DNA from: a virus
Virus record (IMG/VR): IMGVR_UViG_3300008120_000112
Location: 1-41,444 of that record
Length of the DNA: 41,444 bases
Reading direction: 5' to 3' (one strand)
A model generated the notes under the pieces. The model worked only from the letters and a program-made list of their open reading frames with translations, had not been told where the DNA came from and searched no databases. The translations under genes and the position numbers were made by a program. Shown piece after piece: positions 229 to 39,655 of the stretch. Positions within the stretch are counted from its first letter, which is position 1. Each line of letters starts with the position of its first letter.

Positions 229-251
229 TTGACCCCCGTGTGTGCAGATTG

Positions 252-271
252 ATCGCAACAAAACTTGCGTT
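252..271 (+). promoter_or_regulatory. Palindromic operator-like site A1 upstream of terL
   Basis: ATCGCAACAAAACTTGCG at 252-269 matches 17 of 18 bases of the site at 26507-26524 in front of the recombination operon, in the same orientation. It is an imperfect palindrome (CGCAA, 6-base spacer, TTGCG). A TTGCAG hexamer begins at 281, 29 bp after the site start. In the 26.5-kb promoter the -35 TTGACA begins 28 bp after its site start, so the geometry is nearly the same. No convincing -10 is visible here. Confidence 0.6.
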
Positions 272-293
272 AGACGCTCGTTGCAGACAGCGA

Positions 294-315
294 AATCGCA
301 AATGTTGTTGCGATT
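294..315 (-). promoter_or_regulatory. Palindromic operator-like site A2 upstream of terL (inverted copy)
   Basis: AATCGCAA at 294-301, six bases, then TTGCGATT at 308-315 form a perfect 8-bp inverted repeat. Read on the minus strand it matches 20 of 22 bases of the 26506-26527 site. It lies about 43 bp from site A1 in the opposite orientation, and it overlaps an upstream in-frame ATG (302), which argues that translation of terL begins further down at 344. Confidence 0.6.
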
Positions 316-343
316 GTGGGTCTGTTGTCTAGGATGCGTTCTG

Positions 344-1777
344 ATGACGCAGGTGGGCGATCTTTCGTTGGACGAGTTCTGGTTCGGCTGTCGCGAGGCG
401 CCGCATTGGTTTGTGCCGTATGTGCTTGGGTTCGAGAATTCGGGCCTGCACGACGAGCTGCAATGGCATCTGACGGACAACGACGATGCGTACTGCGAGC
501 TGCCTCGCGGTCATGGGAAGACGAATCAGATGGTTGGTCGGGTGTGCTGGGAGATCGGTCGCGATCCGCACATCCGGGTGAAGATCGTCGGGTCGTCGGA
601 TGACGAGGCGACGAAGACTGTGACGATGATCCGGAAGATCGTGCAGTCTGAGGAGTTTCGGAACGTGTTTCCTGGGGTGGAGCCTGACAAGGATTCGTCT
701 TGGGGGAACACGGCGTTCACGGTGAAGCGCAGTAAGTTCATGCGCGACCCGACGGTGGAGGCTGTGAGCGTGTTTGGTCGTGCGGGCGGTCGTTCGGACC
801 TGCTGATTCCCGACGACATCTGCGATCTCCGGAACTCGGTGCAGCAGCCTTCCATGCGCGAGCAGGTGAAGGAGGCGTGGACGACGATCTGGTTGCCGAC
901 GCTGGACAGGTCTGGCGAGAGGCCGAGGATCTGGAAGTTTGGCACGCCGTACCATGTGGCGGACATCACGGCCGACTGGCGGGCGTATCACGACGATCAT
1001 GGCGGGGTGTTTCGCCGGCCGGTGCGTGGGTATGAGAGTCCTTGGCCGGAGGTCTACACGTCGGAGATGATGCAGAAGCTCCGGGCGCAGTATGGGCCGA
1101 TCGCGTATGCGCGGGCCTACGAGCTGTCGCCTGTTTCGAGCGACCAGTTGGTCTTCGACCATTGGTGGCTAGATCGGGCCTTCTACGAGAACGCGATTCC
1201 GGATTTCGTGCGTGCGACGGGGGAAGTCATTGCCGCCACGGACTTTGCGTTCAGCGAGAAGACGGTTCGCAAGGGCGACCCGGACTACTCGGTTCTTGTC
1301 GTCGGCGTTCGTTCCCTCGACGGCATGTGCTATCTCGACAAGGTGATCCGTGCCCGCGTTCCGTTCCCGGAGTGGATGCGGATCTGCGCTCGCGAGTGTC
1401 GTCAGATGGGCGTGTCGATGCTGATGGCGGAAGGCAACGGTCCGCAGGCCGGCCTGGTGCAGCAGCTTGCGATGGCCTGCGAGACGACGAGCGTGATCCC
1501 GGTGATCCGGACGAAGGACAAGCTTTCGCGCGCGAGCGAGAAGCAGTCTTTCGTCGAGAGCGGCCGGCTGCGGCTGCGCGGCGAGAAGGGCCGCGTGAGC
1601 AGGGAGCATGCGGTGCTCTACGAGGAGATGACTACGTTCCCGGCCGGCGACCATGACGATACGGTCGACGCCGTGGTGGACCTGATGGAGGCTTGCATCA
1701 GATCCGGTTATGGCATGAGCGACAGGCCGAGGCTGACCGAGAGCGGCAAGGGCAGGTACTGGAGGCTTTATGGATGA
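344..1777 (+). CDS. terL: Terminase large subunit
   Basis: Motor ATPase and nuclease that packages DNA into the prohead, 477 residues from this start. The ATPase shows a Walker A variant PRGHGKT (about 54-60), a Walker B LLIPDD (about 153-158) and a coupling-like FGTP (about 199). The RNase H-like nuclease domain begins near ATDFAFS (Asp about 300) and ends with GDHDD (about 435-439), typical acidic positions. The ATG at 344 is chosen because AGGA lies nine bases upstream and earlier in-frame starts (242, 302) overlap the palindromic sites. No small terminase gene was recognised nearby. The gene overlaps the portal start by eight bases, indicating a head operon. Confidence 0.93.
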   Translation: MTQVGDLSLDEFWFGCREAPHWFVPYVLGFENSGLHDELQWHLTDNDDAYCELPRGHGKTNQMVGRVCWEIGRDPHIRVKIVGSSDDEATKTVTMIRKIVQSEEFRNVFPGVEPDKDSSWGNTAFTVKRSKFMRDPTVEAVSVFGRAGGRSDLLIPDDICDLRNSVQQPSMREQVKEAWTTIWLPTLDRSGERPRIWKFGTPYHVADITADWRAYHDDHGGVFRRPVRGYESPWPEVYTSEMMQKLRAQYGPIAYARAYELSPVSSDQLVFDHWWLDRAFYENAIPDFVRATGEVIAATDFAFSEKTVRKGDPDYSVLVVGVRSLDGMCYLDKVIRARVPFPEWMRICARECRQMGVSMLMAEGNGPQAGLVQQLAMACETTSVIPVIRTKDKLSRASEKQSFVESGRLRLRGEKGRVSREHAVLYEEMTTFPAGDHDDTVDAVVDLMEACIRSGYGMSDRPRLTESGKGRYWRLYG

Positions 1778-4846: not shown

Positions 4847-4949
4847 CTGTTAGATGAAACGGAACTATAAGTTCCATTATCTACACTTTTATCGTCCGTA
4901 ATGATGGTTTCTTATTGCTTTTAATGCGCTTCGCGCTGTCAATACCGGC
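4847..4949. other. AT-rich spacer with hairpin before the protease gene
   Basis: This roughly 100-bp gap is clearly richer in A and T than its surroundings. GGAACT and AGTTCC (about 4860-4874) form a perfect 6-bp stem with an ATA loop. There is no clear T-tract terminator and no convincing promoter. The following gene begins at ATG 4950 without a strong ribosome binding site. Confidence 0.4.
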
Positions 4950-6110: not shown

Positions 6111-6131
6111 TCACAAAGGAAGGCTCCACAC

Positions 6132-6518: not shown

Positions 6519-6551
6519 TCCGTCCGCACACCAACCGTGAGGTAAACACAC

Positions 6552-7604: not shown

Positions 7605-7626
7605 TCCAGACCCCTCTCTTTCACCG

Positions 7627-7656
7627 GGGCAGGTGGGGATTCGTCCCCACCTGCCC
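7627..7656 (+). terminator. Hairpin after the major capsid gene
   Basis: GGGCAGGTGGGG at 7627-7638 and CCCCACCTGCCC at 7645-7656 form a perfect 12-bp stem with the loop ATTCGT. Only a single T follows, so it may be a partial terminator or an mRNA-stabilising end that raises capsid message relative to downstream genes. Confidence 0.7.
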
Positions 7657-7670
7657 TATGTGGAGGCGGC

Positions 7671-8162: not shown

Positions 8163-8740
8163 ACCGCCGTCGCCGCCGCCGAAGGATCCAGAATCTCTTC
8201 GTGACCCGCATGGCTCTTGCCTATGCGGAGGCTCTGCGCGACAATATCCGCATGTCGATCGGAAGCGACGGTGAATCCGACAGCGAGTTCATGCCGCTCG
8301 GCATCTGGGACAAGGCCAACTTCCGCACTCGCGGCGTCTCGGGCGGTTGGGTCAAGGCCGACCGCACGAACAAGGACAAGCCCCTTCTCGACACCGGCAG
8401 GCTCCTGAAGTCGATTCAGATCGAGTCGGTCAGGATGATCAGCGCGAGCATCACGACGACCGGCCGACCCGGAACCGGATATCGAGTCGTCATCTCCGCG
8501 GCTCCACACGGACTCGAACAGGCCAGGGGTGGAAGGTTCGACGAGATCCTGCTCGGACGCACCAGATCGATCCGAGAGTCGAGGAACTTCGGAGATCTGC
8601 GGCAGAACTACGATTACGTCGTCAAGCGCAACGTCACCGTTCCCGCTCGTCCTTGGAACAACATGAGCAGGACAAGAATCCGAAACATCGCAAGAGATGT
8701 GATGCAGGGCATCACGGGAGCGAACAATGCCAGCAACTGA
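8159..8740 (+). CDS. Virion morphogenesis / tail completion protein (Mu gpG-like)
   Basis: The family hallmark KPLLDTGRLLKSI is present, followed by a beta-rich part (TGYRVVISAAPHGLEQ) and VPARPWNNM near the end, matching the 'P.RPF' motif of this family. 193 residues from a GTG at 8159 that overlaps the previous stop (GTGA). The N-terminus then begins with a run of arginines. An alternative is ATG 8210, which has no clear ribosome binding site. It probably acts in head-tail joining or tail completion. Confidence 0.7.
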   Translation: MNRRRRRRRIQNLFVTRMALAYAEALRDNIRMSIGSDGESDSEFMPLGIWDKANFRTRGVSGGWVKADRTNKDKPLLDTGRLLKSIQIESVRMISASITTTGRPGTGYRVVISAAPHGLEQARGGRFDEILLGRTRSIRESRNFGDLRQNYDYVVKRNVTVPARPWNNMSRTRIRNIARDVMQGITGANNASN

Positions 8741-9281
8741 CTTCCACGTCAACGGTCCAACAAACATCTACTGGGGCATCGGCGGCTCTTCTCCGAACCC
8801 GGCAACGAAGCTTGGATTCACCGACAACGAGGATCTGATCCGCATCACCATGCGCGATCATGTCCGCACCTTCACCCGAAACGACACCGGCGACATGATC
8901 TCGGAAGCCGTCGTTTCGGGAACGACCGCGACGATCGACTTCACGCTGGTCTCCTGGGATCAGACCGAGCTTGAGAAGCTGATCAAGCGCGTCCGACAGG
9001 GCGGAACGGCTACGGCCGGAATCGGGAACGAGGGCATGTTCGCCACGGTCGGCGGCGTCGTCATCAATTCCGGAACGACACCGCGAACCGTGTCGCTGAA
9101 GATCGAGCCGACAACTGCCGGAAAGACCGTCTACATGTTCGGCAACCTGATGCTCGCGAGCGGACCCGAGTACATCGACTTCGGAAACACCCTGAAGCGC
9201 ATTGCGCTTTCGTTCGTCAGCGTGGCGATCACTTCCGATCAGGCTCAGACCCTGATCGCCACGACTACCACTAAGGCTTGA
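8727..9281 (+). CDS. Major tail tube protein
   Basis: A 184-residue beta-rich protein ahead of the chaperone pair, where lambdoid phages encode the tube. Alternating polar/hydrophobic strands such as VVSGTTATIDFTLVSWDQ and KTVYMFGNLMLASGPEYIDFG are typical of tube folds. It overlaps the previous gene by 14 bases, with GGGAGCGAACA before its ATG. Identification is from position, length and the following frameshift cassette. Confidence 0.7.
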   Translation: MPATDFHVNGPTNIYWGIGGSSPNPATKLGFTDNEDLIRITMRDHVRTFTRNDTGDMISEAVVSGTTATIDFTLVSWDQTELEKLIKRVRQGGTATAGIGNEGMFATVGGVVINSGTTPRTVSLKIEPTTAGKTVYMFGNLMLASGPEYIDFGNTLKRIALSFVSVAITSDQAQTLIATTTTKA

Positions 9282-9294
9282 AAGAGAGGACATC

Positions 9295-9555
9295 ATGCCC
9301 GGACAGCGAATCGACATCGAATCGGACGACTGGAACATCACCTTCGTGAAGGGCGAGCGCGAGTACAGGATCGACTCGCTCGTCTACACGAGCCTCCTCA
9401 TGGACCGCACGAAGTCCGATGAGGAGCCGCCGCGAGAGACCGTCGTCGCCTGCATGCGCGAGGCGATGTCTTCGAGCGACGGTCTCTCAGATCACGAGAT
9501 CTGGGCGATGTCCGTCCGGCTCGCGAAGCACATGGGCAAGGCGGGAAACGTCTGA
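9295..9555 (+). CDS. Tail assembly chaperone, gpG-like
   Basis: An 86-residue protein that ends at a TGA (9553-9555) just past a slippery GGGAAAC. Together with the following reading frame it forms a lambda G/GT-type pair, whose products bind the tape measure and recruit tube subunits. The sequence is acidic and helical at the end (SDHEIWAMSVRLAKHMGKAGNV). GAGAGGACATC lies before the ATG. The identity rests on the frameshift geometry and on gene order (tube, chaperones, tape measure). Confidence 0.75.
   Translation: MPGQRIDIESDDWNITFVKGEREYRIDSLVYTSLLMDRTKSDEEPPRETVVACMREAMSSSDGLSDHEIWAMSVRLAKHMGKAGNV
9543..9549 (+). promoter_or_regulatory. Programmed -1 frameshift site GGGAAAC
   Basis: The zero frame reads G GGA AAC followed by GTC TGA, so the heptamer is in the correct register for a simultaneous -1 slip to GGG AAA. 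After the slip the frame continues without a stop through the 9567-9809 reading frame. Lambda uses the closely related GGGAAAG in its G/GT pair. Confidence 0.8.
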
Positions 9556-9809
9556 AGGCGGCGGCGATGTTCGCTGCCGCCTACGGGTTTCCTCCGAGCG
9601 CATGCAAGGACGAGGAAGAGGCAATGGGACTGTTCCAGAACATCCGCATGGCACTTGCGATCAGGAGCGCCACGTTCGCCAGAGGCGTCGCCGCCTGCCT
9701 GTCTCAGGACGCGAACGCGGATCTCCTCAAGGACTGCGGAGCCTCTCCCAAGTCGGTCGCCAAGATGAAGCTTGATGCCATGCGGCAGAAGGCTGGGTTC
9801 CCGGCATGA
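9549..9809 (+). CDS. Frameshifted T-domain of tail assembly chaperone (gpGT-like)
   Basis: This is the -1 frame reached from the GGGAAAC site. The fusion would run from 9295 to 9809. The extension is about 86 residues: FAAAYGFPPSACKDEEEAMG, then a helical part ending KMKLDAMRQKAGFPA. An ATG at 9567 could in principle start an independent 80-residue protein, but GCGGCGGCG before it is not a good binding site, so translation as a fusion is more likely. It overlaps the next gene by four bases. Confidence 0.75.
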   Translation, partial: RLKAAAMFAAAYGFPPSACKDEEEAMGLFQNIRMALAIRSATFARGVAACLSQDANADLLKDCGASPKSVAKMKLDAMRQKAGFPA

Positions 9810-10606
9810 TGTACGCGACGCAGGACGAGATCTATCGATCGCTCAGGCAGCGCCTAATCAGCGCCGCCGGCATCGAGCCGTCCCGCGTGTACCTCACCCA
9901 GGAGCCCAACTTCACCGAGGCGATGGACTATGCGGTTCAGATCACGCCGATCGCCAGCGGCGCGACGAACGAGCTGAACCGCACGGGACTCGGCTTCATC
10001 AACGAGCGGTTCGCCGTGACCACCTTCATCCGGTCCGCGTCCGACAACGCGAACAAGATGACCCGCATGCTCGCGGGAATCGACCGCGGCGTCATGTTCC
10101 GGCAGCAGGAGATCAGGTCGGCCCTGATTCAGGACACGCTCGACGGCCTTCTTCAGGTCGCGATCCGGTTCGTTTCAAGCGGACCGATTCGCGTCGAGCC
10201 GAGGTCGGGCAACTACATCAGCTCGACCGACATATTCGTATGCGGATATGCGCTGGCATGGCCCGTGGCGGGCAAGTTCCGCTACGGCTTCTGGCCGAGC
10301 CGACCGACCTGGGCGCAGCTCTCCGGAGAGAATCAGTACATCAACGAGGTCAAGTACACGGCGACGGCAACCCGTACTTCGAGCGCGCCGAACTGGTTCT
10401 GGTTCGCCTTCCCGCAGACCCTGCACAACATGGGAATCACGATCAGCACCGTGAATGGAGAAGAGCCGTTCTACAGGACCGGCTTTGCGCCTCCGAGCGG
10501 ACCGACAGTCGGCACGATCGAAAGCGGCGGAGTGACCTACGAGCTGTACCGGCGTGCATACGAAACGACCTCTCAAATCCTTAGTTACACCATCGAGGCG
10601 GGTTGA
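9806..10606 (+). CDS. Tail protein of unknown function before the tape measure
   Basis: 266 residues, between chaperones and tape measure. I do not recognise a family. The first part (about 1-140) has a layout that could fit a tail terminator: EIYRSLRQRLISAAGIEPSRVYL, then AVQITPIASG and DNANKMTRMLAGIDRGVMF. The second part is Trp- and Tyr-rich (FRYGFWPSRPTWAQL, NWFWFAFPQTLHNMGITI), as in receptor or fibre-adjacent beta domains. The start overlaps the previous stop (ATGA), so it belongs to the tail operon. Confidence 0.6.
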   Translation: MMYATQDEIYRSLRQRLISAAGIEPSRVYLTQEPNFTEAMDYAVQITPIASGATNELNRTGLGFINERFAVTTFIRSASDNANKMTRMLAGIDRGVMFRQQEIRSALIQDTLDGLLQVAIRFVSSGPIRVEPRSGNYISSTDIFVCGYALAWPVAGKFRYGFWPSRPTWAQLSGENQYINEVKYTATATRTSSAPNWFWFAFPQTLHNMGITISTVNGEEPFYRTGFAPPSGPTVGTIESGGVTYELYRRAYETTSQILSYTIEAG

Positions 10607-12072
10607 TGAGCGGAATACCCACCAACATCCTTGAGGTGAACTTCAACGACGGAGGCGACGGCGATCGCGATCCCGATGTTGAGATGCGGGCGGTCATCGA
10701 CGCACTCCGGGGCGTTCAGAACTCCGTCGCCGCGATCTCGGCCAACGTCCGGGCGATCCTTGAGACTCTCCGGGTCATCGCCCGGTCCGGTGTTCGTGGA
10801 GGCGGTGGCGGTGGAGGAGGGCGTGGCGGAGGTGGCGCCGGCGGAGGTGGACGAGGAGCGGGCGGAGGCGGTCCCGCCGGCACTTTCGGCGCAGACATCC
10901 TCGAATACCGAACCCGCATGCAGCGCAGCGCGGGCCTTCAGATCCGGGACATCGCCTCTGAGTCGCATCGAGCGCTCCTGACGCGCTACCACGACGAGGG
11001 CGAGCGCTCTCGGATGACCCGTCAGGAGATGTCGCAGGCTCTTTCCCTGCGGCGCTTGGAGATCTTCGGCGAGCAGCAGAGCGGATCGATCACCGCCGAA
11101 GCTGCGCGGGTCATGTACCGCGAAGAGCGCGAGCGTGTCCGGACGGCCATGCGTGACGCTCGCCGCAACGAGGTCGCCGACGTTCGTGCCGCCGGTCGCC
11201 GGATGTCTTCGGAGATGCAGCAGCGTCTCGACGATCTCCGTGCGCAGGCTCGCCTCCCCGGAGCGACCGCCGCGTCCATCGGCCTCACGGCGCAGGAGCA
11301 GGCCGTTCTAGCGGGCCAGGCTAGCCCGTCCGGCCTTCCGGGAACCCGAGGGTACTTCCGGGGCGTCCGGAGGATCGTAGAGGGTCTGGAGGCGCCTGTG
11401 CCGGCTCCCGAGGCTCCGCAGGGCCGGTTTGCCGGAGTCATGGGAATCATCACCGTGATCGGGCGCGTTCTGTCGGTTGCCCGGCTGATTTCGGGTCTGA
11501 TTCAGACGATTCTCGGATTCATTCGGTCGATCGTGCAGGGCGCCGAGAATCAGCGCAAGGCATTTGCCGCCATCGATCCGTTCTTCGCCATGCAGCAGGC
11601 ACAGGTCGAGATCGGGGCGATACGGTCGAACATGGCGGTTGCCCAGAGTCCGCTTGTCCGCTCGACCGCCGCCGAGTTCACTCAGATGCAGCTCGCGCGC
11701 CAGCAGGCCGGAATTCCGCTGCGACAATATGGATCTGCGGCGAGAAACAAGCTCGCCACTCGATTTGAGTCGTATTTTCTTAGTCTCGAACTGTTCTATG
11801 GTGGTTTGTACACCTTAAACACGAACAGCATCGGATCAGGTCTAGGATTCGCAGCGGCTGCGTACATCGATACCACGATAATTGGTGCGGGCGGATTCCT
11901 TGGCGACTACATTCGGCAGGCGCTGATTAAGTTTCTCAACACCAGCCCCGCGACCAACAATCAGCTCTTCATCGATGACCTACGATCCATGACCGGAGGT
12001 CGGTTCGAGCCGGATCGCGCCTATCCGATGCGCAACGGGAACCAGACCAACTGGTGGACTGGAAGGCCGTAA
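10606..12072 (+). CDS. Tape measure protein (short)
   Basis: 488 residues. An N-terminal helix is followed by a long glycine/arginine-rich linker (about 63-92), long charged helices, and one hydrophobic stretch (FAGVMGIITVIGRVLSVARLISGLIQTILGF) of the kind tape measures insert into the membrane. It sits directly after the chaperones. At roughly 0.15 nm per residue it would set a tail of only about 70 nm. ATG 10606 overlaps the previous stop (TGATG). The last 120 residues are encoded by more AT-rich DNA (about 11715-11960). Position supports the call more than sequence does. Confidence 0.65.
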   Translation: MSGIPTNILEVNFNDGGDGDRDPDVEMRAVIDALRGVQNSVAAISANVRAILETLRVIARSGVRGGGGGGGGRGGGGAGGGGRGAGGGGPAGTFGADILEYRTRMQRSAGLQIRDIASESHRALLTRYHDEGERSRMTRQEMSQALSLRRLEIFGEQQSGSITAEAARVMYREERERVRTAMRDARRNEVADVRAAGRRMSSEMQQRLDDLRAQARLPGATAASIGLTAQEQAVLAGQASPSGLPGTRGYFRGVRRIVEGLEAPVPAPEAPQGRFAGVMGIITVIGRVLSVARLISGLIQTILGFIRSIVQGAENQRKAFAAIDPFFAMQQAQVEIGAIRSNMAVAQSPLVRSTAAEFTQMQLARQQAGIPLRQYGSAARNKLATRFESYFLSLELFYGGLYTLNTNSIGSGLGFAAAAYIDTTIIGAGGFLGDYIRQALIKFLNTSPATNNQLFIDDLRSMTGGRFEPDRAYPMRNGNQTNWWTGRP

Positions 12073-14141
12073 TGAGCGAAACGAAGATCATCTATCGCGG
12101 CATCACGCTGACGCAGGTCCGGATCGAGGAATACCGGATCGACAACGTCGCAAGTCCGGACAGCCCGTCCACCGGAATCCTGCGGCACACGATCATCGGC
12201 GAGGCTCTCGTCTTCGAGTACCAGCAGGGCGGAATAGGCAACACGTCGAACAAGAAATTCACCGACCAGTTGATTCAGGTCTTGAATTCCCCGCGAGGCG
12301 ATCTTCTTGTCGAGATCGCGACCGGAGCGAGCAACAACAGCAAGTACACCGTCTTCAACAACTATCTCGGAAGTTCTCCGATCGATGTCGATGAGATGAA
12401 CGGCCCGTTCTTCAAGGCGAACATCACTCAGATCACGGGAACGAACGCCGTGATCGTGAACTTCACGATTGAGTTCGCGAAGAGCGCCGAGAGTGGAAAC
12501 CGGATCAAGAACCTGGTCTGTCTCGCGTCCTTCAGCATCGACGAGGTCGGACTCACTACCATCAGGAAGACGGGATCGATCCAGCTCGCCTCGCAGTCGT
12601 CGTTCCTTGCGGGATCCCCGGCGACCGTTCAGGGATTGAAGACCGACACCGTCGGTTCTCCCGATACCGCGACATTCAACAACAGGTATCTCGTCGGTGA
12701 TGGACGGCGTAACGACATCATCGTGGACTTCGTGACGGCAAGCTCTGGCGCGAATGGAAACGAGCAGCCCGACTTCTACAGGCGCCTCATCAGCGGCAAC
12801 CTGGATCGCGGATTCCGGCGAATTCGTCAGGAATATGCCATCGACGAGAGCAGGACGAGGCTCCTGTTCGACATCGTCGATCAGGAATTCACCCGAGGTC
12901 TGCCCGCGCCGGCCCGCGTCGGCGACTGTCACTACAGCTTCGAGCGGCAGCTCGGAGAGAACAACGCGATCGGCTTGAAGCACTTCGTAGCCACGGTCAA
13001 GGGCGATCGGAACGTCACTTCGGGCGCCCTGCTGACGCTCTGCATTCGCCTGTCGCAGAACCGGATCGACTACAAGAAGGATCTCATCGTCCGGGTCAAG
13101 GTCGCCGAGAACAACATGCTCTCGGAGAACTCCCTGACCTACGAAGTCGCCGCGAAGGCGACCTCGTCGCAGAACTTCCAGGCATCCGACGGGCCTCCTG
13201 AAACCGGCGGAATCGCGACGCCGATCGACAACAGCCTTCTCCTGAAGAACATCCTTTCCCCGATCCCGATGGCGTCGGTCGGAAATCAGGCTCAGGCATT
13301 CGAGTTCTTCCCGGCATTCCAGCCTGACGCTTACGGCTCTGCGACGATCGTGCGAGTCGTTCCGAGCGCCTACAACCATCAGACCGCCTCGTCGCAGCTC
13401 AATCTCGCTTCGACGATCAAGATCAACGAGCAGAATCCGGTGATCTACCAGTTTCCGAAGGGAACCTTCGATACTGCGGAGCAGTTCGAGGACGGGATCA
13501 ACTACTACATCAAGAAGGACACCGCGGCGGTTCCCACCGGGCCGAACAGGGGCGATCTCAGCAAGGCAAGGGACGCGTCAAATCCGAATGCGCCGGCCAA
13601 CACGCAGAACCCCGCCTACGTCAGCAAGGGCGGTCAGAAGATCGAGGTTCGCACAGGCATCATCGTCGTTCCGTCGCTCTGCGTGAATGGAGGCGCTGCC
13701 CTGTTCCAGATGGGAGCTCCGACCGCCGTGGTCACCGACTATCTCGACGGATCCCGCAAGAACGAGCCTCCCGTCCGTGCGCTTACCGACAAGCCCGCGA
13801 CATCGGCGATCGCCTCCTATGGCATGGCGGTGTCTTCGGGCATTCCCGACGCGAACGGAAACCGCGTGCTGACCGCGGCTCACGACCGGGTCGCGATTGT
13901 CTATCCTCCCGACGACATCACGGAGGCCGACTTGGACGCAGACCCGCCGGTTCCCGGAGGCTCGATAGCCAATCCCGCATACAAGATCGTCACCGCGTCG
14001 GTCAATGGTCAGAACTTCCGGCACATCGCATTCTTCCCGAACAAGCTCGACATGCCGCCTGACGAGACGCAGGGAACCTTCAACGACGACGCGCCTCCGA
14101 CCTATACGACCGGCCTAGGAACGCCGGAGGTGCTGGCATGA
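12072..14141 (+). CDS. Large tail/baseplate protein, unknown family
   Basis: 689 residues, beta-rich with many Asn, Ser and Thr, no signal peptide and no recognised enzyme motif. The order after the tape measure suggests a distal tail or baseplate component. The N-terminus reads IIYRGITLTQVRIEEYRIDNV, and a segment TSNKKFTDQLIQVLNSPRGDLLVEI follows. The ATG at 12072 overlaps the previous stop (TAATG) with GGAAGG five bases upstream. The next gene overlaps by four bases. A structural role is inferred. Confidence 0.6.
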   Translation: MSETKIIYRGITLTQVRIEEYRIDNVASPDSPSTGILRHTIIGEALVFEYQQGGIGNTSNKKFTDQLIQVLNSPRGDLLVEIATGASNNSKYTVFNNYLGSSPIDVDEMNGPFFKANITQITGTNAVIVNFTIEFAKSAESGNRIKNLVCLASFSIDEVGLTTIRKTGSIQLASQSSFLAGSPATVQGLKTDTVGSPDTATFNNRYLVGDGRRNDIIVDFVTASSGANGNEQPDFYRRLISGNLDRGFRRIRQEYAIDESRTRLLFDIVDQEFTRGLPAPARVGDCHYSFERQLGENNAIGLKHFVATVKGDRNVTSGALLTLCIRLSQNRIDYKKDLIVRVKVAENNMLSENSLTYEVAAKATSSQNFQASDGPPETGGIATPIDNSLLLKNILSPIPMASVGNQAQAFEFFPAFQPDAYGSATIVRVVPSAYNHQTASSQLNLASTIKINEQNPVIYQFPKGTFDTAEQFEDGINYYIKKDTAAVPTGPNRGDLSKARDASNPNAPANTQNPAYVSKGGQKIEVRTGIIVVPSLCVNGGAALFQMGAPTAVVTDYLDGSRKNEPPVRALTDKPATSAIASYGMAVSSGIPDANGNRVLTAAHDRVAIVYPPDDITEADLDADPPVPGGSIANPAYKIVTASVNGQNFRHIAFFPNKLDMPPDETQGTFNDDAPPTYTTGLGTPEVLA

Positions 14142-16540
14142 CGAGCGTCATTCCGCAGGGAGCCGCTGCGATCGAGATCTCGTGCCCCGAGTTCGGGACC
14201 GTTACAGGCCGTCGCGAAGTATGCGCGCTGCTCCTGACGCCCGAGATCGTGGCGATGATGGAGCGTCAGAATCTCGACCCGTCGGATGTCAACTCGATGA
14301 AGTGGCCGATCTTCGGCCTGAGCCGGCATGCGACCTGCAAGCTGCTGATGAACCGGCGCTCTCTCATCGATCTCGTTGCAAGAGATCCCCAGGTCATTGC
14401 TCCGGTTGGTGGTCAAAACACGCTTGTGGAGTGGAATAGCGAAGCTGCGTACCGAATTTGGTTCATCTGTGGATCGAAGGCCGAAAGCGGCACGACTCGA
14501 TTTGATCGCATGCGACTTGCGGAGATCCAGCCGCTTGTATCCGTGGAGATGGGCGATCCCGTCATTGGCGACGCGCTTTACATCGTGACGTTCAAGTGCG
14601 ATCGATGGGCTTGGAAGGGGTTCAGGTCTACAGTTGCTTGGAGAAAAACCAGCTCCGTAATCAATTGGCCTGACACACACCCGTCAGTTAGGTCAGATTT
14701 TGTTTACGGAACCCGTGCGTATCAGGGTTTTACATCGAATTCAATTACTCCGGATTTGAAATGCGGACAATTTGACGAAAGCGATGCCCGGCTTGAATAT
14801 TTCTTGAATTCAATAGCATACGAGTTTGAAGACAACACAATTGATAATCCGGACTTTAGTAGTGCTGAATTTATTCAGATTCAAGATGTGTTGTTTGTTG
14901 ACCCCGCAGTAGATAGAAAGTTTTTCAGGTACTTTAATCTGCTTGCAGAATCAGCTCCGGTGTTCGTGGAAATCGATAGGGTGCTGGGGTGCATTGGTGC
15001 GCCGGTGCATTATTTCCCAATAGAACCTACCCCCCAAGATCCTTTTGGAGATCGTGGAGTCTTTGAGATAGGTGTCCAGCCCCGAATCGGTATTGTTGCG
15101 GACGACGTAGGTAGAATTGAGGATAAATATAAGACTCGCCTCATCGCTGGAACTATCGGCAGGATGGAGCGATCTGAAAACGATGCCCTTAATGCAAACG
15201 AGACCACCGCACAGGATGGCTCGTATCCGTTCTACGTCGATTTCAGCGAGATCCGGTACAACGAAAGCTCGTATTGGGACATTGTCGCAATGCCCGTTGC
15301 GTCATCTCCCGATGGATATGTCGGGGAAATTTGGCGGAATTATTGGCGATGGGATAATCTAAAAAATTCAACTCCGGTTACTCAAATTCCGACGCAAGGC
15401 AGCGGGACGGATTTGATCCTGAAATATGCGTATTTCCCTCATAACCCATTTTCTGACCAGCGTTTCATCTCCTTCTGCCTGCCGTCGCTGAATCAGTCTC
15501 TTACAGCTCCAAAGGATGCTCCGACTTTTGGGCCGTTTGCAAACGTGTATGTGGCTCCGGACTTTGCCACGCATGTCAGCTCTATGGATATCCAATCCCA
15601 GGGCTCGCGACTTCCGGTTACATCGCCGATAAGTCCTGATCGTAGTACAGTTATTGCTGCCAAACCAATTCCTTCATTTGCGTATGGGTTTGATTTACCG
15701 TCATACTCACAATCTAGTACTGGCGCTACAAACAATGGAAGATTGAAGATTGATTCAGAACTTTGGTTTTCCGGATGGTTCCTCCCTGATTATGGCATTA
15801 TGACTTCAGGGACTTTTGCATGGGTTGAGCTTCGACTTCAGACCGATGGAAAGGGTTTTCCGCACCCGGTTACAAAGCTTTGGGGAAAGAAGCTCGACCC
15901 GATCATGCGCCCGGTTCCGGATGATGGGCAGAGGGAAATCACCTGCTCCGGTCTTGCAAAGACCTGGAAGACGATGGATGGAAAGACGCGCATCCACGTC
16001 GAATATCCGTTTGGGATTCCGATGCTGCTCAAGGTCATCGACTCCGAGTTGATCGCGCCCAATCAATGGAAGTACACCTGCGAGCACGCTCTCAAGAGCA
16101 ATATTTCCACGCAGATCACCGGAGGTCAGGCGACGTTCGGCATCAATACATTCAGCCCGGACATCGAAGACTTTTCCGCAACATGGGGGGCGGGAAATGG
16201 ATACCCTCCATTGGAAGCGCAGAAGTACTACGCATACAACCTTGCAGAGCGGGGAAATGGCGCCGGATTTGCCGGACCGGGATACAAGCTTCCGCTATCG
16301 CAGACCGGATTCAACGTTCTGCCGATCGGAAAGGACCGCGATGGCGTCCAGCATGAGGTCTACGTCCAGGCGATGGTGTATCTCGCCGGCGCCGGTCGGC
16401 AAGCAACAGATCGGGAGCCCCAGGAAGAATTTGCTTCGGAGGCGATGGCCTACTTCTGCATGCCCAACGCGATCGACGGCGAGTGCGACACTCCGCTCGT
16501 CTCGGAGTCCGACTACGACGGCGGAACCTTCGGAACCTGA
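14138..16540 (+). CDS. Large tail tip protein, unknown family, mosaic composition
   Basis: 800 residues, not recognised. Cysteines occur near the start ([16 protein letters not shown]). The centre is rich in Trp, Phe and Asn and looks beta-structured, and the end has [15 protein letters not shown]. The first 230 bases and the last 700 follow the GC-rich codon use of the neighbours, but about 14600-15820 uses A/T-rich codons, so the middle was probably exchanged with another phage. It may be the tail hub or a receptor-contact protein, by position between the baseplate-like gene and the fibres. Confidence 0.6.
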
Positions 16541-16542
16541 CC

Positions 16543-17799
16543 ATGCCGAGAATTCTGCTCAAGCGATCCACGAATCCCGGCGACGTTCCGGCGCTTGGTG
16601 ATCTGTTCATCGGCGAGCCGGCGCTCAATGTCGCGGACGGCAAGCTGTTCATCCGCAAGTCGAACAACACGATCGCCGAGATCGGAATCGTGGCGGACGG
16701 CGGCAAGGGCGACGTGTCCGTCAGCGCGAACGGCAGCGTGTGGACGATCAACGACAACTCGGTGACCGTTGCCAAGATCAACGCGACCGGAACGCCGTCG
16801 GCGTCTACGTTCCTTCGCGGAGACGGGTCGTGGTCGACTCCTGCGGGAGGCGGCGTCTCGGACGGCGACAAGGGCGACATCACCGTCTCGGGCTCCGGCG
16901 CGACCTGGACGATCGACAACGGCGTCGTCTCGCTCGCGAAGCTCTCGGCGACGGGAACGCCGTCCGCGTCGAACTTCCTCCGAGGCGACAATACCTGGGC
17001 GGCTCCTGCTGCCTCAGCTCCGGTCGGCGCGCAGTACCTCACGCTCGCGGCAGACGCGACTCTGACGAACGAGCGCGTACTGACGGCCGGGAACCACGTC
17101 ACGATCTCGGATGCGGGAGCCGGCGCGGCCGCGACCCTGAACTGGCGGTACGACTACGCGAAGCGGCAGACCGTCTACTCGGAGATGGTCGTGATCCAGC
17201 CGTGGGTCTCTCAGACGAGCGGCACGGGCGCGGCGGTCTCAAGCACGACCACGGGCCTGAGCGATGCCGACCACTTCGGCGTCGCGCAGGCCACGACCGG
17301 CACGACCACGACCGGTAGAGCAGCACTTAGCGGCAGCACGATCGACATGGTGAGCTTCGGCACTATCGCAAGCCGAATCACGGGCGAGTTCAAGCTGGCG
17401 AACCTGAGCGATGCGACGAACACCTATACGGTGCTCTTTGGGTTCAACGACTCGTATACGGCGCTCGGCGTCGATTCCGTCTGCTTCACCTACACGCACG
17501 GAACGAACTCAGGACGCTGGCAGGCGCATTGCCGCAGCAACTCGACGACCGCCGGAGGCGTCGACACCGGCATCACCGCCGACACGAACTGGCACCGATT
17601 CGACATCGAGGTCAACGCCGCCGGCAACGAGGCGAATTTCTACATCGACGGCGCGCTCGTCTCGACGCAGACGGCGAACATCCCGACCGGGACGGCCCGG
17701 GCGACCGGCATCGTCTGCGGACTCTTCAAGTCCGCCGGAACGACGGCGCGTCTGATGAACATTGACTTTCTTGCCTTCGAGAGCGAGGTCAACCGATGA
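16543..17799 (+). CDS. Tail fibre with fibre repeats and lectin-like C-terminus
   Basis: 418 residues. The N-terminus ([27 protein letters not shown]) is the phage-fibre attachment type seen in tropism-determinant proteins. Two copies of a repeat (pattern [16 protein letters not shown] and [16 protein letters not shown], then [21 protein letters not shown]) follow at about 50-155. The C-terminal 200 residues resemble a concanavalin-type jelly roll ([32 protein letters not shown]). It probably binds surface glycans. It starts three bases after the preceding gene. Confidence 0.78.
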
Positions 17800-18158
17800 G
17801 GTGGGCGATCCTCGACGAGAACCGCCGGGTCGTCTCGATCGTCGAGCAGGAGGAGCGTCCTGCGAACGGCGTGAAGGGATTCGACCCGTCCTGCGCGGTC
17901 GGACGCATCTTCGACGGATGGAACTTCCGCGCGCCTTCGTGGACGGCGTACCAGTTCCTCCTCCGCTTCACGGCATCGGAGCGCGCGGCGTTCCGCGCGG
18001 CCGCGGCAGGCGATCCGGCCGTCGCGGACTTCCAGCAGCTCGCGCAGGCGGCGCAGGAAATAGTCGCCGACGATCCGATGACGGTCGCCGGCATGGACTA
18101 CCTTGTGGCACAGGGACTATTGACCCGCGCCAGGGCTGATGAGATACTCGGAGGTTGA
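17796..18158 (+). CDS. Small fibre-associated protein
   Basis: 120 residues. The beginning ([20 protein letters not shown], then [16 protein letters not shown]) has the form 'W.vld..grVv ... vG..fdG..F' common to small proteins encoded next to tail fibres. The remainder is Ala-rich helix. It overlaps the preceding fibre gene by four bases. The role, possibly fibre assembly or capping, is inferred from position only. Confidence 0.6.
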
Positions 18159-18159
18159 C

Positions 18160-19755
18160 ATGCCATACAATGAATCGGTCTACAAGCTTGGCGTGCCGAT
18201 CGCTCCTACGGAGCCCGAGGATGTCAATCCGACTCATATCGCCGAGTACGGTCGCGGTGGACTCATGTCCGTTGCGACCCTTGCCGCGCGGGATGCGATT
18301 CCGGCCGGACGCAAGACCGTCGGCATGCTCGTCTACGTCAGCGCGGAATCGAAGTACTACACGCTGACGACGCTTCCCTCGACCTGGGTCGAACTACAGA
18401 CCGGCGGCAGTCCTTCGATTCCCGATCCGCTCACGATCGTGGAGTTGAACGCCGAGCGCATCGACTTCGATACGACTCCTGCCGACCCGACGACCGACAC
18501 GGGTCGCATGGTCTGGAACACGGACTACCGAACCGTCATGCTCGGCATGAACGGAGTCGTCGTTCCGCTTGGACAGTCCATGATGAAGCTCGCCCACAAC
18601 GCGACCGGACAGCCGATCGCGAAGGGAAGCGTCGTCTACATCGCCGGATCGCACGCGAACACATCGCTGCTGATCGATCTCGCCGACGCCAATAGCGAAT
18701 CGATGTCGTCTAAGACGATCGGACTTGCTGCCGAGACCATCGCGAACGGCGATGACGGGTTCATCATCACCGAGGGTCTGCTCTCGGGGCTGACGACAAA
18801 CGGGCTTTCTGGATCCTCTGGAACGGCGATCTGGCTTTCCGAGACCGCCGGAGAGTTCACCTCAACGAAACCTTCCGCGCCAAATCACGGCGTGTTCCTT
18901 GGGTGGCTCGTCAAGAAGGCCGGGTCGGGAGCCGGAAGCGTCTTCGTCAAGATCATCAACTATCCCGAGCTCGACGAGCTGCACGATGTCCTGATCACGA
19001 GCATCGCGAACGACGATGCGCTGATCTGGGACTCGGGCGCGGGAGTCTGGCGCAACGAGAAGATCGGACTATCTTCTCTTGCGTCGATAAATGCCGCAAA
19101 GCTGATTGGTCGTCGTTCGGGAACTTCAGGAACTCCGGAGGAAATCACCGTCAGCACGGGCCTGAAGATCAGCTCGACAGGCGTCCTCACGACGGATGCC
19201 GTCCCTTCCGACACTCGATCCATTAATGCCGGAACAGGGCTCACGGGAGGCGGAGACCTCTCCGCCGACAGGACGTTCTCCGTCGACTTTGCGGCAAGCG
19301 GAGAATCGAGCACGACCAAGGCCGTTCGAGCCGACGACTCGCGTCTTTCCGATGCCCGACCCGCGCTTGGATCGGCTTCGACGGCGCTATCCGCAGACGT
19401 GACGATGACCAACGCCGACACCTGGTACGACGGTCCGTCCGTCTCGCTCTCCGCGGGAACGTGGGTGATCGACAGCATGGTCACGATCCTGAAGGCGAAC
19501 GTCACCGGAACGGATGCGCTTGCGGTCCGGATCACCGATGGAACGAATCACTATTCGTCCGGCAATCAGTCGTGGAACACGCGATTGCAGGCTTTGACAA
19601 CCATGTCGTGCTCAAGCATCGTGACTCTCGGATCTACGACCACGATCAAGATCCAGGCGGCATCGCAGTACGCCGGATGCACGATCAAGGCGGCAACGAC
19701 CTACCAGGCTTCTGGAAACACCGCAAGCAACATCAACGCCGTGAGAATCGCATGA
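18160..19755 (+). CDS. Second tail fibre protein
   Basis: 531 residues. The segment TRSINAGTGLTGGGDLSADRT, then GESSTTKAVRADDSRLSDARP is the well-known phage fibre repeat. An N-terminal part with DTGRMVWNTDYRTVMLGMNGVVVPLGQSM also recurs in fibres and appears to be the attachment end. ATG 18160 is chosen because GGAGG lies five bases upstream. An in-frame ATG at 18139 lies inside the previous gene. The C-terminus is beta-rich and Thr/Ser-rich, as expected for a trimeric tip. Confidence 0.78.
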   Translation: MPYNESVYKLGVPIAPTEPEDVNPTHIAEYGRGGLMSVATLAARDAIPAGRKTVGMLVYVSAESKYYTLTTLPSTWVELQTGGSPSIPDPLTIVELNAERIDFDTTPADPTTDTGRMVWNTDYRTVMLGMNGVVVPLGQSMMKLAHNATGQPIAKGSVVYIAGSHANTSLLIDLADANSESMSSKTIGLAAETIANGDDGFIITEGLLSGLTTNGLSGSSGTAIWLSETAGEFTSTKPSAPNHGVFLGWLVKKAGSGAGSVFVKIINYPELDELHDVLITSIANDDALIWDSGAGVWRNEKIGLSSLASINAAKLIGRRSGTSGTPEEITVSTGLKISSTGVLTTDAVPSDTRSINAGTGLTGGGDLSADRTFSVDFAASGESSTTKAVRADDSRLSDARPALGSASTALSADVTMTNADTWYDGPSVSLSAGTWVIDSMVTILKANVTGTDALAVRITDGTNHYSSGNQSWNTRLQALTTMSCSSIVTLGSTTTIKIQAASQYAGCTIKAATTYQASGNTASNINAVRIA

Positions 19756-20021
19756 CAGACGACAACAAGCGCACGTCCCAACTCATCGCCTCGTGGGCTC
19801 AGTTCGTTGCCATGTGCATCGGCATCGGCACGATCCTGATCTACATGGGTCGCAAGGATCAGCAGCTTGCTACCACCACGGAGCAGGTGAAGGAACTCAG
19901 CAACATCGTCTCCGATCTGACCAAGGCTCAGGTCGGATTCACTCTGTCCGACAAGCAGACCGAAGATCGTCTGCGTGAGCTTGCCGCCCGGCTGGAGCGG
20001 CTTGAAGGAAGACGACCATGA
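19752..20021 (+). CDS. Holin-like membrane protein
   Basis: 89 residues with one transmembrane helix near the N-terminus (SWAQFVAMCIGIGTILIYMG) and then a charged coiled coil (VKELSNIVSDLTKAQ, LRELAARLERLEGR). The size, a single membrane segment and the position between fibres and a lipoprotein suggest a holin or holin-associated protein. Its start overlaps the fibre stop, and the next gene overlaps its own stop (ATGA), so it is translationally coupled. Confidence 0.55.
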   Translation: MTDDNKRTSQLIASWAQFVAMCIGIGTILIYMGRKDQQLATTTEQVKELSNIVSDLTKAQVGFTLSDKQTEDRLRELAARLERLEGRRP

Positions 20022-26506: not shown

Positions 26507-26526
26507 ATCGCAACAAAATTTGCGAT
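26507..26526 (+). promoter_or_regulatory. Palindromic operator of the recombination operon (site B)
   Basis: ATCGCAACAAAATTTGCGAT is a perfect 7-bp inverted repeat around a 6-base spacer. Its first 18 bases match site A1 near terL at 17 of 18, and the inverted site A2 matches at 20 of 22 over a slightly longer stretch. It ends eight bases before the -35 box, a place from which an activator or a repressor could act. Confidence 0.7.
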
Positions 26527-26534
26527 CGGAGCGC

Positions 26535-26563
26535 TTGACAACCATCTAACACGAATCTACAGT
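26535..26563 (+). promoter_or_regulatory. Sigma-70-like promoter of the exonuclease-bet operon
   Basis: -35 TTGACA (26535-26540), 17-bp spacer, -10 TACAGT (26558-26563). Transcription would begin near 26570, leaving a leader of about 113 bases before the ATG at 26683. Confidence 0.75.
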
Positions 26564-26569: not shown

Positions 26570-26682
26570 GAGCCACCAGAACCGCCCGGAACACCCTTCC
26601 TCCCTGCCGCACGTTTCGCTCACGCGAGGTGGCTCCCCGCATCGGTTCATGGCGTGCGGCAGGGGGGATTTCCGAGGTCATC
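26570..26682 (+). promoter_or_regulatory. Structured 5' leader with interleaved stems (possible pseudoknot)
   Basis: Two complementary pairs interleave. GAGCCACC (26570-26577) can pair with GGTGGCTC (26628-26635). CCCTGCCGCACG (26602-26613) pairs with CGTGCGGCAGGG (26653-26664), and this stem extends to 16 pairs (26598-26613 with 26653-26668, one G-U). Because the second member of stem 1 lies in the loop of stem 2, the two must form a pseudoknot or exclude one another. The ribosome binding site GAGG (26674-26677) directly follows stem 2. This fits control of translation or attenuation. No known riboswitch class was recognised. Confidence 0.55.
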
Positions 26683-27498
26683 ATGGAAGTGAAGATCGTC
26701 AGGGGAATGCCGGCCGCGGAGTATCACGCGGTGCGCGCAGCATCGTCGACTCGGCTGAAGGAGATTCTCCGCAGCCCGGCGCATCTCAAGTGGATGGACG
26801 AGAACGGGAAGACGGCGGATTCGCTTGCGCTCGGCGAGGCGTTCCACATGGCTACGCTGGAGCCTGAGAAGTTCTTCGAGCAGTTCATCGTCATGCCGAA
26901 GTACGACCGCCGGACGAAGGACGGTCGCGCCGCGTTCGACATGTTCCGCGACGCCAACGCCGACAAGAAGGTGATCGATCAGGACGACTACAACTCCGTC
27001 TGCTCGATGCGCGACGCCATCATGGACCATCCCGCCGCCCACGACCTGCTCTCGATGCGGTCCGAGACCGAGCTCTCGCTGTTCTGGACCAACATGCTCG
27101 GACAGCCGTCCAAGGCTCGGATCGACGCGTACAGCGACCTAAGCCGGTGCGTGGTCGATCTGAAGAGCACGGTGTCTGCGGATCCCGGAGAGTTCGCTCG
27201 ATCGGCCTTCAAGTACGGCTACCACCTTCAGGCGGCGTGGTATCTCGATGCCGCTCGCATGGCGGGGCTCAAGACCGATTCAATCGTCTTTGTCGCCGTC
27301 GAGAAGACGCCGCCGTTCGGCGTCGCGTGCTACAGGTTCGACGAGGATTCCATCGATGCCGGCCGCGTCTCCTACATGCGGGCTATTGCGATCCTCCATG
27401 CGTGCGAGAGTTCGCGCGAGTGGCCGGGCTATTCGCCGATGATCGAGACCATCCGTTTCCCGAAGTGGCGCACCCCTGAAAGAGAGGAAGTCCTGTGA
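26683..27498 (+). CDS. Exonuclease VIII-like nuclease (PD-(D/E)XK)
   Basis: 271 residues. ETELSLFW (about 128-135), KARIDAY (144-150), VVDLKST (157-163, the D and K of the PDDEXK core) and [14 protein letters not shown] (177-190) are the ordered motifs of the RecE C-terminal / DUF3799 family. It degrades double-stranded DNA ends to leave a 3' single strand for the annealase. The ATG at 26683 has GAGG upstream. The stop overlaps the start of the Bet-type gene, as expected for a Red-like pair in one operon. Confidence 0.85.
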
Positions 27499-28385
27499 GC
27501 AACCTGGCACGAATCAATCTCGACGATGGAAAGATCGGTCTGATCTCCCGGACCATCGCGAAGGGCAGCAGCCCTGATGAACTAGAGCTCTTCATTGCGA
27601 TCTGCCGTCGCACCGGGCTCGACCCGTTCGCCCGACAGATCTACGCGATCCGTCGGTGGGACGGCCGCGAGCGACGCGAGGTCATGCAGACGCAGGTGTC
27701 GATTGACGGCGCACGCCTTGTTGCGCAGCGCAGCGGCGAGTACGCCGGTCAGGACGGCCCGTACTGGTGCGGTGAGGACGGCGTGTGGCGCGACGTTTGG
27801 CTGTCGAAGGTTCCTCCGACCGCGGCTCGCGTAGGCGTGTCCCGGAAGGGCTTCGTCGCGCCTCTGTATGCGGTGGCGCTCTGGTCTGAATACTGCCAGC
27901 GGAACAAGGAAGGTCAGCCGACCGGACAATGGCCGCGCATGCCTGCGCTCATGCTCGCCAAGTGCGCCGAGATGCTCGCCTTGCGCAAGGCATTCCCAGC
28001 CGAGCTGTCCGGGCTGTACAGCGCCGAGGAGATGAGCCACGCCGACGAGGCTCCGGCATTCTCCCCATCCGTCCTGAAGGCCGCGCATTCGGCCGAGGAT
28101 GCCCGCCAAGACGATGGGCATGACGATGCGCCCGAGGAGGCCCAGGACGAGGCCGCGACTCCTGCGGCATCCCAGGCGCCCGCAATGATGGCTCCGGCCG
28201 ACATCCGGGCGATGTTGAAGGCTCTTTCGTCCAAGGGGCTGACTCTCGACGACCTGCGTTCGGCAATGGCGAAGGCCGGGTTGTCCGGAGGCGAGAACCC
28301 CGACGGGTGGCCGGCCGAGTGGGCTGCTCGCATCAAGTCGTGGATCAAGTCTCAGAAGAGCCGAAATTCCGAAACGAGTGCCTGA
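27495..28385 (+). CDS. bet: Phage recombination protein Bet-type single-strand annealing protein
   Basis: 296 residues from a GTG that overlaps the exonuclease stop (GTGA). The Redbeta/Bet family sequence is plain: [55 protein letters not shown] and [22 protein letters not shown], then EEM. The C-terminal 100 residues are Ala- and Glu-rich and end in a small helical domain (about 230-295), probably a protein-contact module. It anneals complementary single strands in recombination and replication. A strong terminator-like hairpin follows. Confidence 0.92.
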
Positions 28386-35617: not shown

Positions 35618-35948
35618 TGTGTTCAAGGCCGCGGTCGGCATTGCGGCTCGGGAGTGCGTCCCCCCGGAGATCACTCCCATCAGGGGAGCGATCGAGCTGC
35701 ATTGGATCGCCTACCTGCCCCGTCCTCAGAGGCTGTGCCGGCGAGGATCGGACGCGGGTCCGGTCGTCTGCCTTGCAAAGCCCGACCGTGACAACATCGA
35801 CAAGGCGATCTGCGATGCGTTGCAGGACGCCGGGGTGATCGCCGACGACCGGACGATCTACCTGGGATCGCAGGCCAAGTACTACGCGGAGATCGACGGC
35901 GCCCCGCGCGCCGAGATCTGCATCCGCTGCACGAATACGGAGGACTGA
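35511..35948 (+). CDS. rusA: RusA Holliday junction resolvase
   Basis: 145 residues. The family core is clear: KGQPRARATM near the N-terminus, and KPDRDNIDKAICDALQDAGV, then IADDRTIYLGSQAKYYAE, which includes the Asp residues that hold the catalytic metal. It resolves recombination or replication junctions and fits with the annealase and nuclease. ATG 35511 overlaps the TGA of the gene reading up to 35514. A CGAATACGG lies just ahead of the start (35486). Confidence 0.9.
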   Translation: MNEYRFTANAIPKGQPRARATMFGNRARMWTPSTADVFKAAVGIAARECVPPEITPIRGAIELHWIAYLPRPQRLCRRGSDAGPVVCLAKPDRDNIDKAICDALQDAGVIADDRTIYLGSQAKYYAEIDGAPRAEICIRCTNTED

Positions 35949-36229
35949 TGGCTGTTCGCTTCACAGAGGTTCTGAGGCAGGTTCTGCATCGATACTCGCG
36001 CCCGGACGCGGTCGACATCACGCAGTCGGACATCGCCGAGGAGTTCGGCAGGAACCGCGCGACGATCCATTCGCATTGCAGCCGCCTCGTCGAGCTCGGG
36101 TATCTCCGCCGACATCGGCAGGGGCAGTACGAGATCACGGCCGACGGCAGGTCCGCGCTCGACCGTCGGCAGACATCAGCCGCCCGCGTCATCCGCTGCC
36201 CCAGCTGCAACCACAGGTTCGTGTTCTAG
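35948..36229 (+). CDS. Winged-helix protein with Cys-pair tail
   Basis: 93 residues. FTEVLRQVLHRYSRPDAVDI, then QSDIAEEFGRNRATIHSHCS and RLVELGYLRRHRQGQYEITADGR form a MarR-like winged helix ending in a wing strand. A tail IRCPSCNHRFVF has a Cys pair that may hold a metal with a partner. It probably regulates phage promoters. It ends the plus-strand run and overlaps the last 54 bases of the convergent recombinase gene. Confidence 0.65.
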   Translation: MAVRFTEVLRQVLHRYSRPDAVDITQSDIAEEFGRNRATIHSHCSRLVELGYLRRHRQGQYEITADGRSALDRRQTSAARVIRCPSCNHRFVF

Positions 36230-36916
36230 GACGATCCTGCGCACGGTCATCGGCGACAGGCGCGAGCATCCCCGGCCGCGGATGCCTTCGGCTGCGAGAG
36301 CCTGGGCGATCCTGCGGAACCCGAGGCCGTCGGCATGGAGCTGCCGGGCCCGCGCGATAGCGGCCTGTTCGTGCGGGTCGGCGATCAGAATCTTGCGTTC
36401 CCTGCCGCCGGAAACCTCCGTACAGGCGATCCTGAATCCGAAGGGCACGGCGCCCCCGGTCTTCTCTCCGCGGCCGCGCTTGGCCTCTAGCGCCTTCTGT
36501 GTGCGCTCCCGGATCAGCTCCCGCTCGTACTCGGCGAGCAGTTTCATCATGCCCCGCATGAGGAACGCCGCCGCGCCGGCGCCTTCGGTTCCCTCGCCCG
36601 CGACGGAAACGAGTTTCGCCTTGCGAATACGGAGAGCGGCGTCGGCGTCGAGAAACACCTGGCCCTCGCGGCCGAGCCGATCCATCTTCGCGACGACGAG
36701 AACGTCGCCGCGCTGTAGCCAATCCAAGGCCGCGCAGAGACCTGGGCGGTCCTCGACCGGCGTAGCGCCCGAGACGCCCTCATCGGCGAACACGGCGACG
36801 CATTCAGCGCCGAGCTCCGTCGCCTTCCGCTCGCATGCGGAGCGCTGCGCCGCGAGCCCCAGCCCGCTCTGCGCCTGTTCGTCTGTAGAGACCCTAATGT
36901 AGATTGCCGCCCTCAC
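36176..36916 (-). CDS. Serine recombinase (resolvase/invertase family)
   Basis: 246 residues. The catalytic domain is plain: YIRVSTDEQ with nucleophile Ser10, then VVAKMDRLGREGQVF and EYERELIRERT, the usual Arg-bearing region. The C-terminal part has a helix-turn-helix (RIAQALAAEGIRGRG, then SPMTVRRIV). It lacks the long zinc-ribbon C-terminus of large serine integrases, so it may act as a resolvase or invertase, or be a small integrase. It is the last gene of the minus operon, and its start overlaps the stop of the gene before it by four bases (36913-36916). Confidence 0.85.
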   Translation of the reverse strand: MRAAIYIRVSTDEQAQSGLGLAAQRSACERKATELGAECVAVFADEGVSGATPVEDRPGLCAALDWLQRGDVLVVAKMDRLGREGQVFLDADAALRIRKAKLVSVAGEGTEGAGAAAFLMRGMMKLLAEYERELIRERTQKALEAKRGRGEKTGGAVPFGFRIACTEVSGGRERKILIADPHEQAAIARARQLHADGLGFRRIAQALAAEGIRGRGCSRLSPMTVRRIVLEHEPVVAAGAADDAGG

Positions 36917-38592: not shown

Positions 38593-38609
38593 CGAATACG
38601 GTCCGTATT
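38593..38609. promoter_or_regulatory. CGAATACGG palindrome before the 38239-38583 gene
   Basis: CGAATACGGTCCGTATT is identical over 17 bases to 39637-39653. The central 15 bases (38595-38609) are a palindrome around T602. It overlaps the ribosome binding site region of the gene that starts at 38583 on the minus strand. Confidence 0.6.
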
Positions 38610-38673
38610 GCTTTGGGCGACGGTCGCCCGCACCGCGCCCGGTCGCATCGGGCGCGTAGCGGAGGATCGGCGG

Positions 38674-39612: not shown

Positions 39613-39655
39613 GTCTAAATTTTTCTAGACGCCCATCGAATACGGTCCGTATTCG
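39613..39655. promoter_or_regulatory. Two palindromes upstream of the minus-operon promoter
   Basis: GTCTAAATTTTTCTAGAC (39613-39630) is an imperfect palindrome with 5-bp perfect arms. CGAATACGGTCCGTATTCG (39637-39655) has perfect 9-bp arms around one base. Both lie upstream of the -35, where a regulator could act. Confidence 0.6.

Follow-up and report, generated by a model that had tools for sequence, protein, structure and literature searches.

Phage genes for early recombination and late packaging are usually viewed as separately controlled. In phage P1, a single repressor, C1, acts at operators that lie before unrelated operons, its sites being asymmetric and numerous. Palindromes of 20 bp, in turn, are the usual type of target for winged-helix regulators of the MarR, ArsR, and IdeR types. 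In Cluster A mycobacteriophages, stoperators are numerous and asymmetric and are bound by the repressor as a monomer (PMC9283540, PMC6550527), and the RinA/Ltr late regulators of Gram-positive phages, for example Ltr of phi13, bind at repeated sites that precede the packaging operon (PMC13123087). Here, we analyze a palindrome that stands before both the exonuclease-RecT operon and the packaging operon in the IMG/VR viral record IMGVR_UViG_3300008120_000112 (41,444 bp, 62% G+C), which is referred to over its whole length as the window. We suggest that a group of uncultured tailed phages encodes a small regulon with this palindrome as its operator, where a winged helix-turn-helix (wHTH) protein would bind as a dimer and mainly repress; we put the probability of this reading at roughly one in two.

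The window contains exactly three matches to the 20-mer at three or fewer mismatches (Table 1): the copy at the promoter of the exonuclease gene (exo; no mismatches), copy A2 on the minus strand upstream of the terminase large subunit gene terL (one mismatch), and copy A1 in the same region (two mismatches). A1 and A2 lie 43 bp apart, center to center. In 100 dinucleotide shuffles of the window, no match was found at this threshold. Although the half-site ATCGCAA is also scattered elsewhere, only these three places have both arms at a 6-bp gap with no more than one arm mismatch. The original prediction had counted 17 of 18 identical positions for A1 and 20 of 22 for A2 relative to the exo copy; these counts are right by eye. 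Given the shuffles and the conservation described below, chance is excluded and the three palindromes are real sites.

The motif recurs in related phages, where its consensus is ATCGCAAGAA·TTCTTGCGAT (20 to 22 bp). Among the 26 loci found as relatives of the terL protein, the operator heads the terminase operon in approximately 19 of the 22 contigs that cover the region, lying upstream of terL or of terS-terL (window and contig L004, G001, G002, G004-G014, G018-G021, G023, and G027); the remaining terL contigs end before it. At exo, the operator is present in the window, G004, G005, G018, and G029. G002, G004, G005, and G023 have an extra copy in the region that separates the leftward operon from the rightward genes, and G018 and G031 have one past the helicase gene. 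When 476 kb of relatives was scored with a position weight matrix (PWM), accepted sites reached at least 16.4 and the background in family contigs did not exceed 15; at a much lower threshold of 8, shuffled DNA yielded 12 background matches. The lowest accepted site (16.4, G031) is weak, but it lies inside a promoter at the same place as that of G018. The operator was absent from 73 more distant exo loci and is group specific. We rejected the idea that it is widespread in phages, as its other exact matches, in unrelated viral contigs, occur at roughly chance level. Because relatives carry the motif at both operons and because it is group specific, the sequence comparison supports a single operator common to recombination and packaging, as the original prediction had it, although its presence at exo is not universal. 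Such sharing suggests that one phage-made regulator may serve both operons. That recombination is "early" and packaging "late" we infer from gene content.

The geometry of the promoters bears on the sign of regulation. Across relatives, the predicted exo promoter takes the form TTGACA-17-TAGAGT (as in G004 and G005), TACAGT, or TAACAT. The original prediction had placed a -35-like hexamer 28 or 29 bp downstream of the site start at both operons. Both hexamers exist (TTGACA at 26535, 28 bp; TTGCAG at 281, 29 bp from the start of A1), but only the one at exo belongs to a recognizable promoter. The common spacing did not survive: TTGCAG at terL has no -10 box, and in relatives the exo TTGACA or TTGCAT lies 19 bp (G004 and G005) or 24 bp (G018) from the site start. 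Relative to the predicted exo +1, the operator is centered at -53.5 in the window, -44.5 in G004 and G005, and -49.5 in G018. The best candidate for a terL promoter in the window is TTGCGA-16-TAGGAT (309-336), which overlaps A2, the right half of which covers the possible -35 TTGCGA. In G018 and G031, a promoter downstream of helicase (TTGACC/TTGACA-16-TACAAT) has its 16-bp spacer filled by the palindrome. At the terS gene of clade 2, the only good -35 lies upstream, so the operator falls near +16 and leaves about 15 bp to the ATG.

The most likely binder of the operator is a small wHTH protein (isoelectric point 10.2) whose gene is the last in the rightward exo-to-RusA operon. It matches PF12802 MarR_2 with 30 bits against a cutoff of 27. 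Its predicted model has the order H-H-H-E-E-H with a predicted local distance difference test (pLDDT) score of 74 and resembles MarR, ArsR, and IdeR folds (E, ~1e-3; TM [template modeling] score, 0.6 to 0.7); the core of the recognition helix, RNR, is invariant. A search of viral contigs with this protein returned contigs of this phage group only. Strong matches were found in G004, G005, G009, G012, G013, G018, G023, G027, and G031, and the operator is present in every one of them, including the weak site of G031. Among 36 other RecT phages without a strong match, only G064 has a site with one mismatch. The co-occurrence is significant (Fisher, 2e-9), a value that is inflated because the phages share ancestry. 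The gene for the wHTH protein converges with that for the leftward serine recombinase (35948-36916), their 3' ends overlapping by 54 bp in the window, with a similar arrangement in relatives.

We propose that the wHTH protein would bind the two half-sites as a dimer and act mainly as a repressor, although the sign is less secure than the regulator. The operator marks the head of the packaging and structural operon, whether this begins with terL or with terS-terL, and several lineages also have it at the head of the exo-RecT and replication operon. Repression is consistent with its positions: it occupies the -35/-10 spacer of the helicase-distal promoter; at exo, it abuts or closely precedes a near-consensus -35; and at terS, it may follow a TTGACA. 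That its position varies on promoters that are otherwise strong speaks for repression, and negative feedback together with repression would fit these positions better than activation. The protein would thereby close a negative-feedback loop on its own operon and hold back the packaging operon or set its timing.

Yet, a number of observations weigh against this reading. Three contigs (L019, L021, and L026) have no full site upstream of terL though some upstream DNA is present. The exo site is a half-site in G013, is degenerate in G027, and is absent from G030 and G031. A search for promoter-like pairs over positions 1-420 found none, and the terL promoter of the window is not identifiable. Across relatives, the spacing between the operator and the best candidate promoter spans -92 to +16. 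The wHTH protein is too short to include the extra dimerization helices of MarR, and its model is that of a monomer only. It is also one of several genes kept in the group, so its co-occurrence with the operator is confounded by common descent.

In a different view, the wHTH protein would be a late transcriptional activator resembling RinA/Ltr that switches on the terL operon from the operator and shuts off or modulates the early operon at exo. The terL region is the most widely conserved location of the operator and has the only full site in the complete genomes G013 and G027. The terL promoters, which are uncertain, lack good -35 boxes, and activation may act there. We regard late activation as less likely than repression. 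The position of the operator relative to candidate promoters is not constant, it sits inside a near-consensus promoter spacer in G018 and G031 and close to the start codon of clade-2 terS, and the wHTH gene is not directly before the late promoter: the stretch from its end (36229) to terL contains genes of the leftward recombinase block as well as another set of rightward genes.

The size of the palindrome is typical of sites for many bacterial regulators, and so a host transcription factor might be the binder, the phages having recruited a host regulon. This seems improbable, since in the two metagenome-assembled genomes (MAGs) that contain relatives the sole near-perfect site is on the phage contig, and the other MAG matches are GC rich, have two mismatches, and lack the internal consensus of the motif. 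Other viral contigs with ATCGCAAGNNNNCTTGCGAT are unrelated, single copy, and at roughly chance level. We give a slightly lower probability to the terL palindrome being a cosB-like terminase or packaging element, or else a partition or recombination site. It does adjoin terL among other repeated motifs (GTTAGACGGTTGT and GACCCCC..TATGTG, described below), as in cos regions, and the phages encode a small serine recombinase. However, the same sequence stands before exo, at the helicase-distal promoter, and before the leftward operon, where packaging has no role, and the central dinucleotide differs between copies. Finally, any palindrome can fold as RNA, and should the upstream TTGACA be the promoter of clade-2 terS, that copy would fall in a leader. 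The exo site, however, lies upstream of the -35 and hence outside that transcript, and chance similarity is excluded by shuffles and conservation; we consider hairpins or coincidence very improbable.

Downstream of the exo operator, our analysis points to a pseudoknotted leader RNA, which is the better supported novelty. In helix S1, positions 26570-26577 (S1a, GAGCCACC) pair with 26628-26635 (GGTGGCTC); in helix S2, positions 26598-26615 (S2a) pair with 26651-26668. All close relatives have the same layout from promoter to exo start codon (GCCACC ... S2a ... GGTGGCTCC ... S2b), and in each the structure begins 6 to 7 nt after the -10, which is the predicted +1. Core pairs of S1 are invariant among close relatives. 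The long helix S2 has been rewritten in sequence across eight lineages with its pairing kept: it forms 13 to 16 Watson-Crick pairs within each phage and usually 4 to 9 when partners from different lineages are combined, with higher values only among G004, G005, and the window. In the alignment, this helix is 100% paired and 11 of 12 pairs are changed on both sides. The covariation score was 0.627, compared with 0.159 in shuffles and no more than 0.165 in slid controls, on an alignment that leans to the pseudoknot because paired segments were cut out and joined by hand.

All 7 close exo relatives among viral contigs have the leader, as do the window and G027; all 73 more distant exo loci lack it. 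It persists in relatives where the operator is lost. A search of the window against Rfam gave no family at gathering score, and the microRNA-type matches to the leader were rejected as sub-threshold hairpin matches. Matches to the leader pattern outside the group were rejected because their second helix had no more than eight Watson-Crick pairs, and literature searches for a described pseudoknot leader of phage exo or recT found nothing on point. The pseudoknot probably adds post-transcriptional control of the exo transcript, perhaps by protecting the 5' end or by sequestering the exo ribosome-binding site. In G004, G018, and G031, the GGCTCC of S1b has a possible alternative partner in GGAGCC at the ribosome-binding site, which might allow a switch; this is not seen in the window or G005. 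We consider less likely than not, though plausible, the fuller scheme in which one wHTH protein commands both operons via one palindrome and a new family of H-type pseudoknot leaders forms a second, post-transcriptional layer.

Table 1. Positions of the operator copies, exo control elements, and genes in the window
Feature	Position	Strand	Evidence or remark
Operator copy A1 upstream of terL, ATCGCAACAAAACTTGCGTT	252..271	+	PWM 27.3
Operator copy A2 upstream of terL, AATCGCAAATGTTGTTGCGATT region	295..314	-	Mismatch search and PWM
Operator copy at exo-RecT promoter, ATCGCAACAAAATTTGCGAT	26507..26526	+	PWM 29.9
Predicted exo promoter, TTGACA-17-TACAGT	26535..26563	+	10/12 consensus match; conserved in relatives
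Pseudoknotted exo leader RNA	26570..26682	+	Starts at predicted +1 of exo promoter
Basic winged-helix protein of 93 aa ending in a CPxC tail (candidate regulator)	35948..36229	+	PF12802 MarR_2; predicted model; co-occurrence
terL (terminase large subunit)	344..1777	+	First gene of packaging/structural operon; phrog_38, E 9e-60
Exonuclease (exo VIII-like)	26683..27498	+	phrog_412, E 2e-85
RecT/Bet-like annealing protein	27495..28385	+	phrog_2780, E 3e-66
Helicase	start 29915	+	
Primase	start 33795	+	
RusA	start 35511	+	
Small serine recombinase	36176-36916	leftward	In short leftward block; homologue typed as Resolvase

Most genes of the window run rightward, from terL through portal, capsid, and tail genes to exo, RecT, helicase, primase, RusA, and the winged-helix gene. 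Both ends of the window match contig L004 exactly, and 422 bp of L004 bridges them, so the genome map is circular, at ~41.9 kb. Megablast of positions 1-20000 gave no match and terL matches among phage records were all below 60% identity; no close cultured relative was found. Relatives sit in one actinobacterial MAG and, on a short contig, one alphaproteobacterial MAG. The G027 contig (C349, L166-L168), a relative that is complete at 45.7 kb and has an end repeat of 141 bp, lies inside the MAG of an uncultured actinobacterium, a possible hint at the host, though MAG membership is no proof.

Other motifs surround the operators. A second motif, GTTAGACGGTTGT, lies at 269-281 and in terL control regions, often in two copies, and in reverse at 26538-26550, where it overlaps the exo -35 and spacer. 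We rejected the view that the true operator is a 60-bp extended palindrome with GTTAGAC flanks. These flanks show symmetry in some terL regions but shift relative to the operator at exo and were therefore treated as a separate motif. Between GTTAGACG repeats upstream of terL, a GACCCCC..TATGTG block (~220-245) is conserved (e.g., L010, L012-L016, and L023) and is possibly a cos or packaging site. Before the leftward operon, the palindrome CGAATACGGTCCGTATTCG occurs at 39637-39655 and, with two mismatches, at 38593-38611; it is found with at most one mismatch in G004, G005, G009, G012, G013, G018, G027, and G031 and is perhaps a second operator or a recombinase site. At clade-1 terL starts (L012-L016), a hairpin, GTGGAAGTTTATCTTCC(AC), separates an AAGGAG-like ribosome-binding site from the GTG start, as if to bring the two together.

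Through a shared operator, one protein could couple the timing of DNA recombination to packaging. Both regulator and operator are small, as well as orthogonal, and could serve as parts. With the exo leader, phage mRNA would gain a new family of structured RNA, one whose covariation is strong enough to allow its structure and function to be tested directly. If the fuller scheme is true, the wHTH protein, operator, and leader would make up a previously unrecognized phage control module.

The proposed module shares features with each of the described systems. Like MarR, ArsR, and IdeR regulators, the candidate has a winged-helix fold, with a MarR_2 match above cutoff, but it has 93 aa and a single CPxC tail, without a ligand domain or MarR dimerization helices. 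As in RinA/Ltr systems, repeated sites precede the packaging operon, although the wHTH protein has no match to that family, its gene is not adjacent to the late promoter, and the sites are palindromes rather than direct repeats, occur also at the exo promoter, and probably have a negative sign. With P1 C1, the system shares operators before unrelated operons, although the P1 sites are asymmetric and many. The likeness to Cluster A mycobacteriophages is that one phage repressor would act at several places in the genome; here, it would do so through one to three palindromic sites per genome, placed at the heads of operons, instead of many asymmetric ones.
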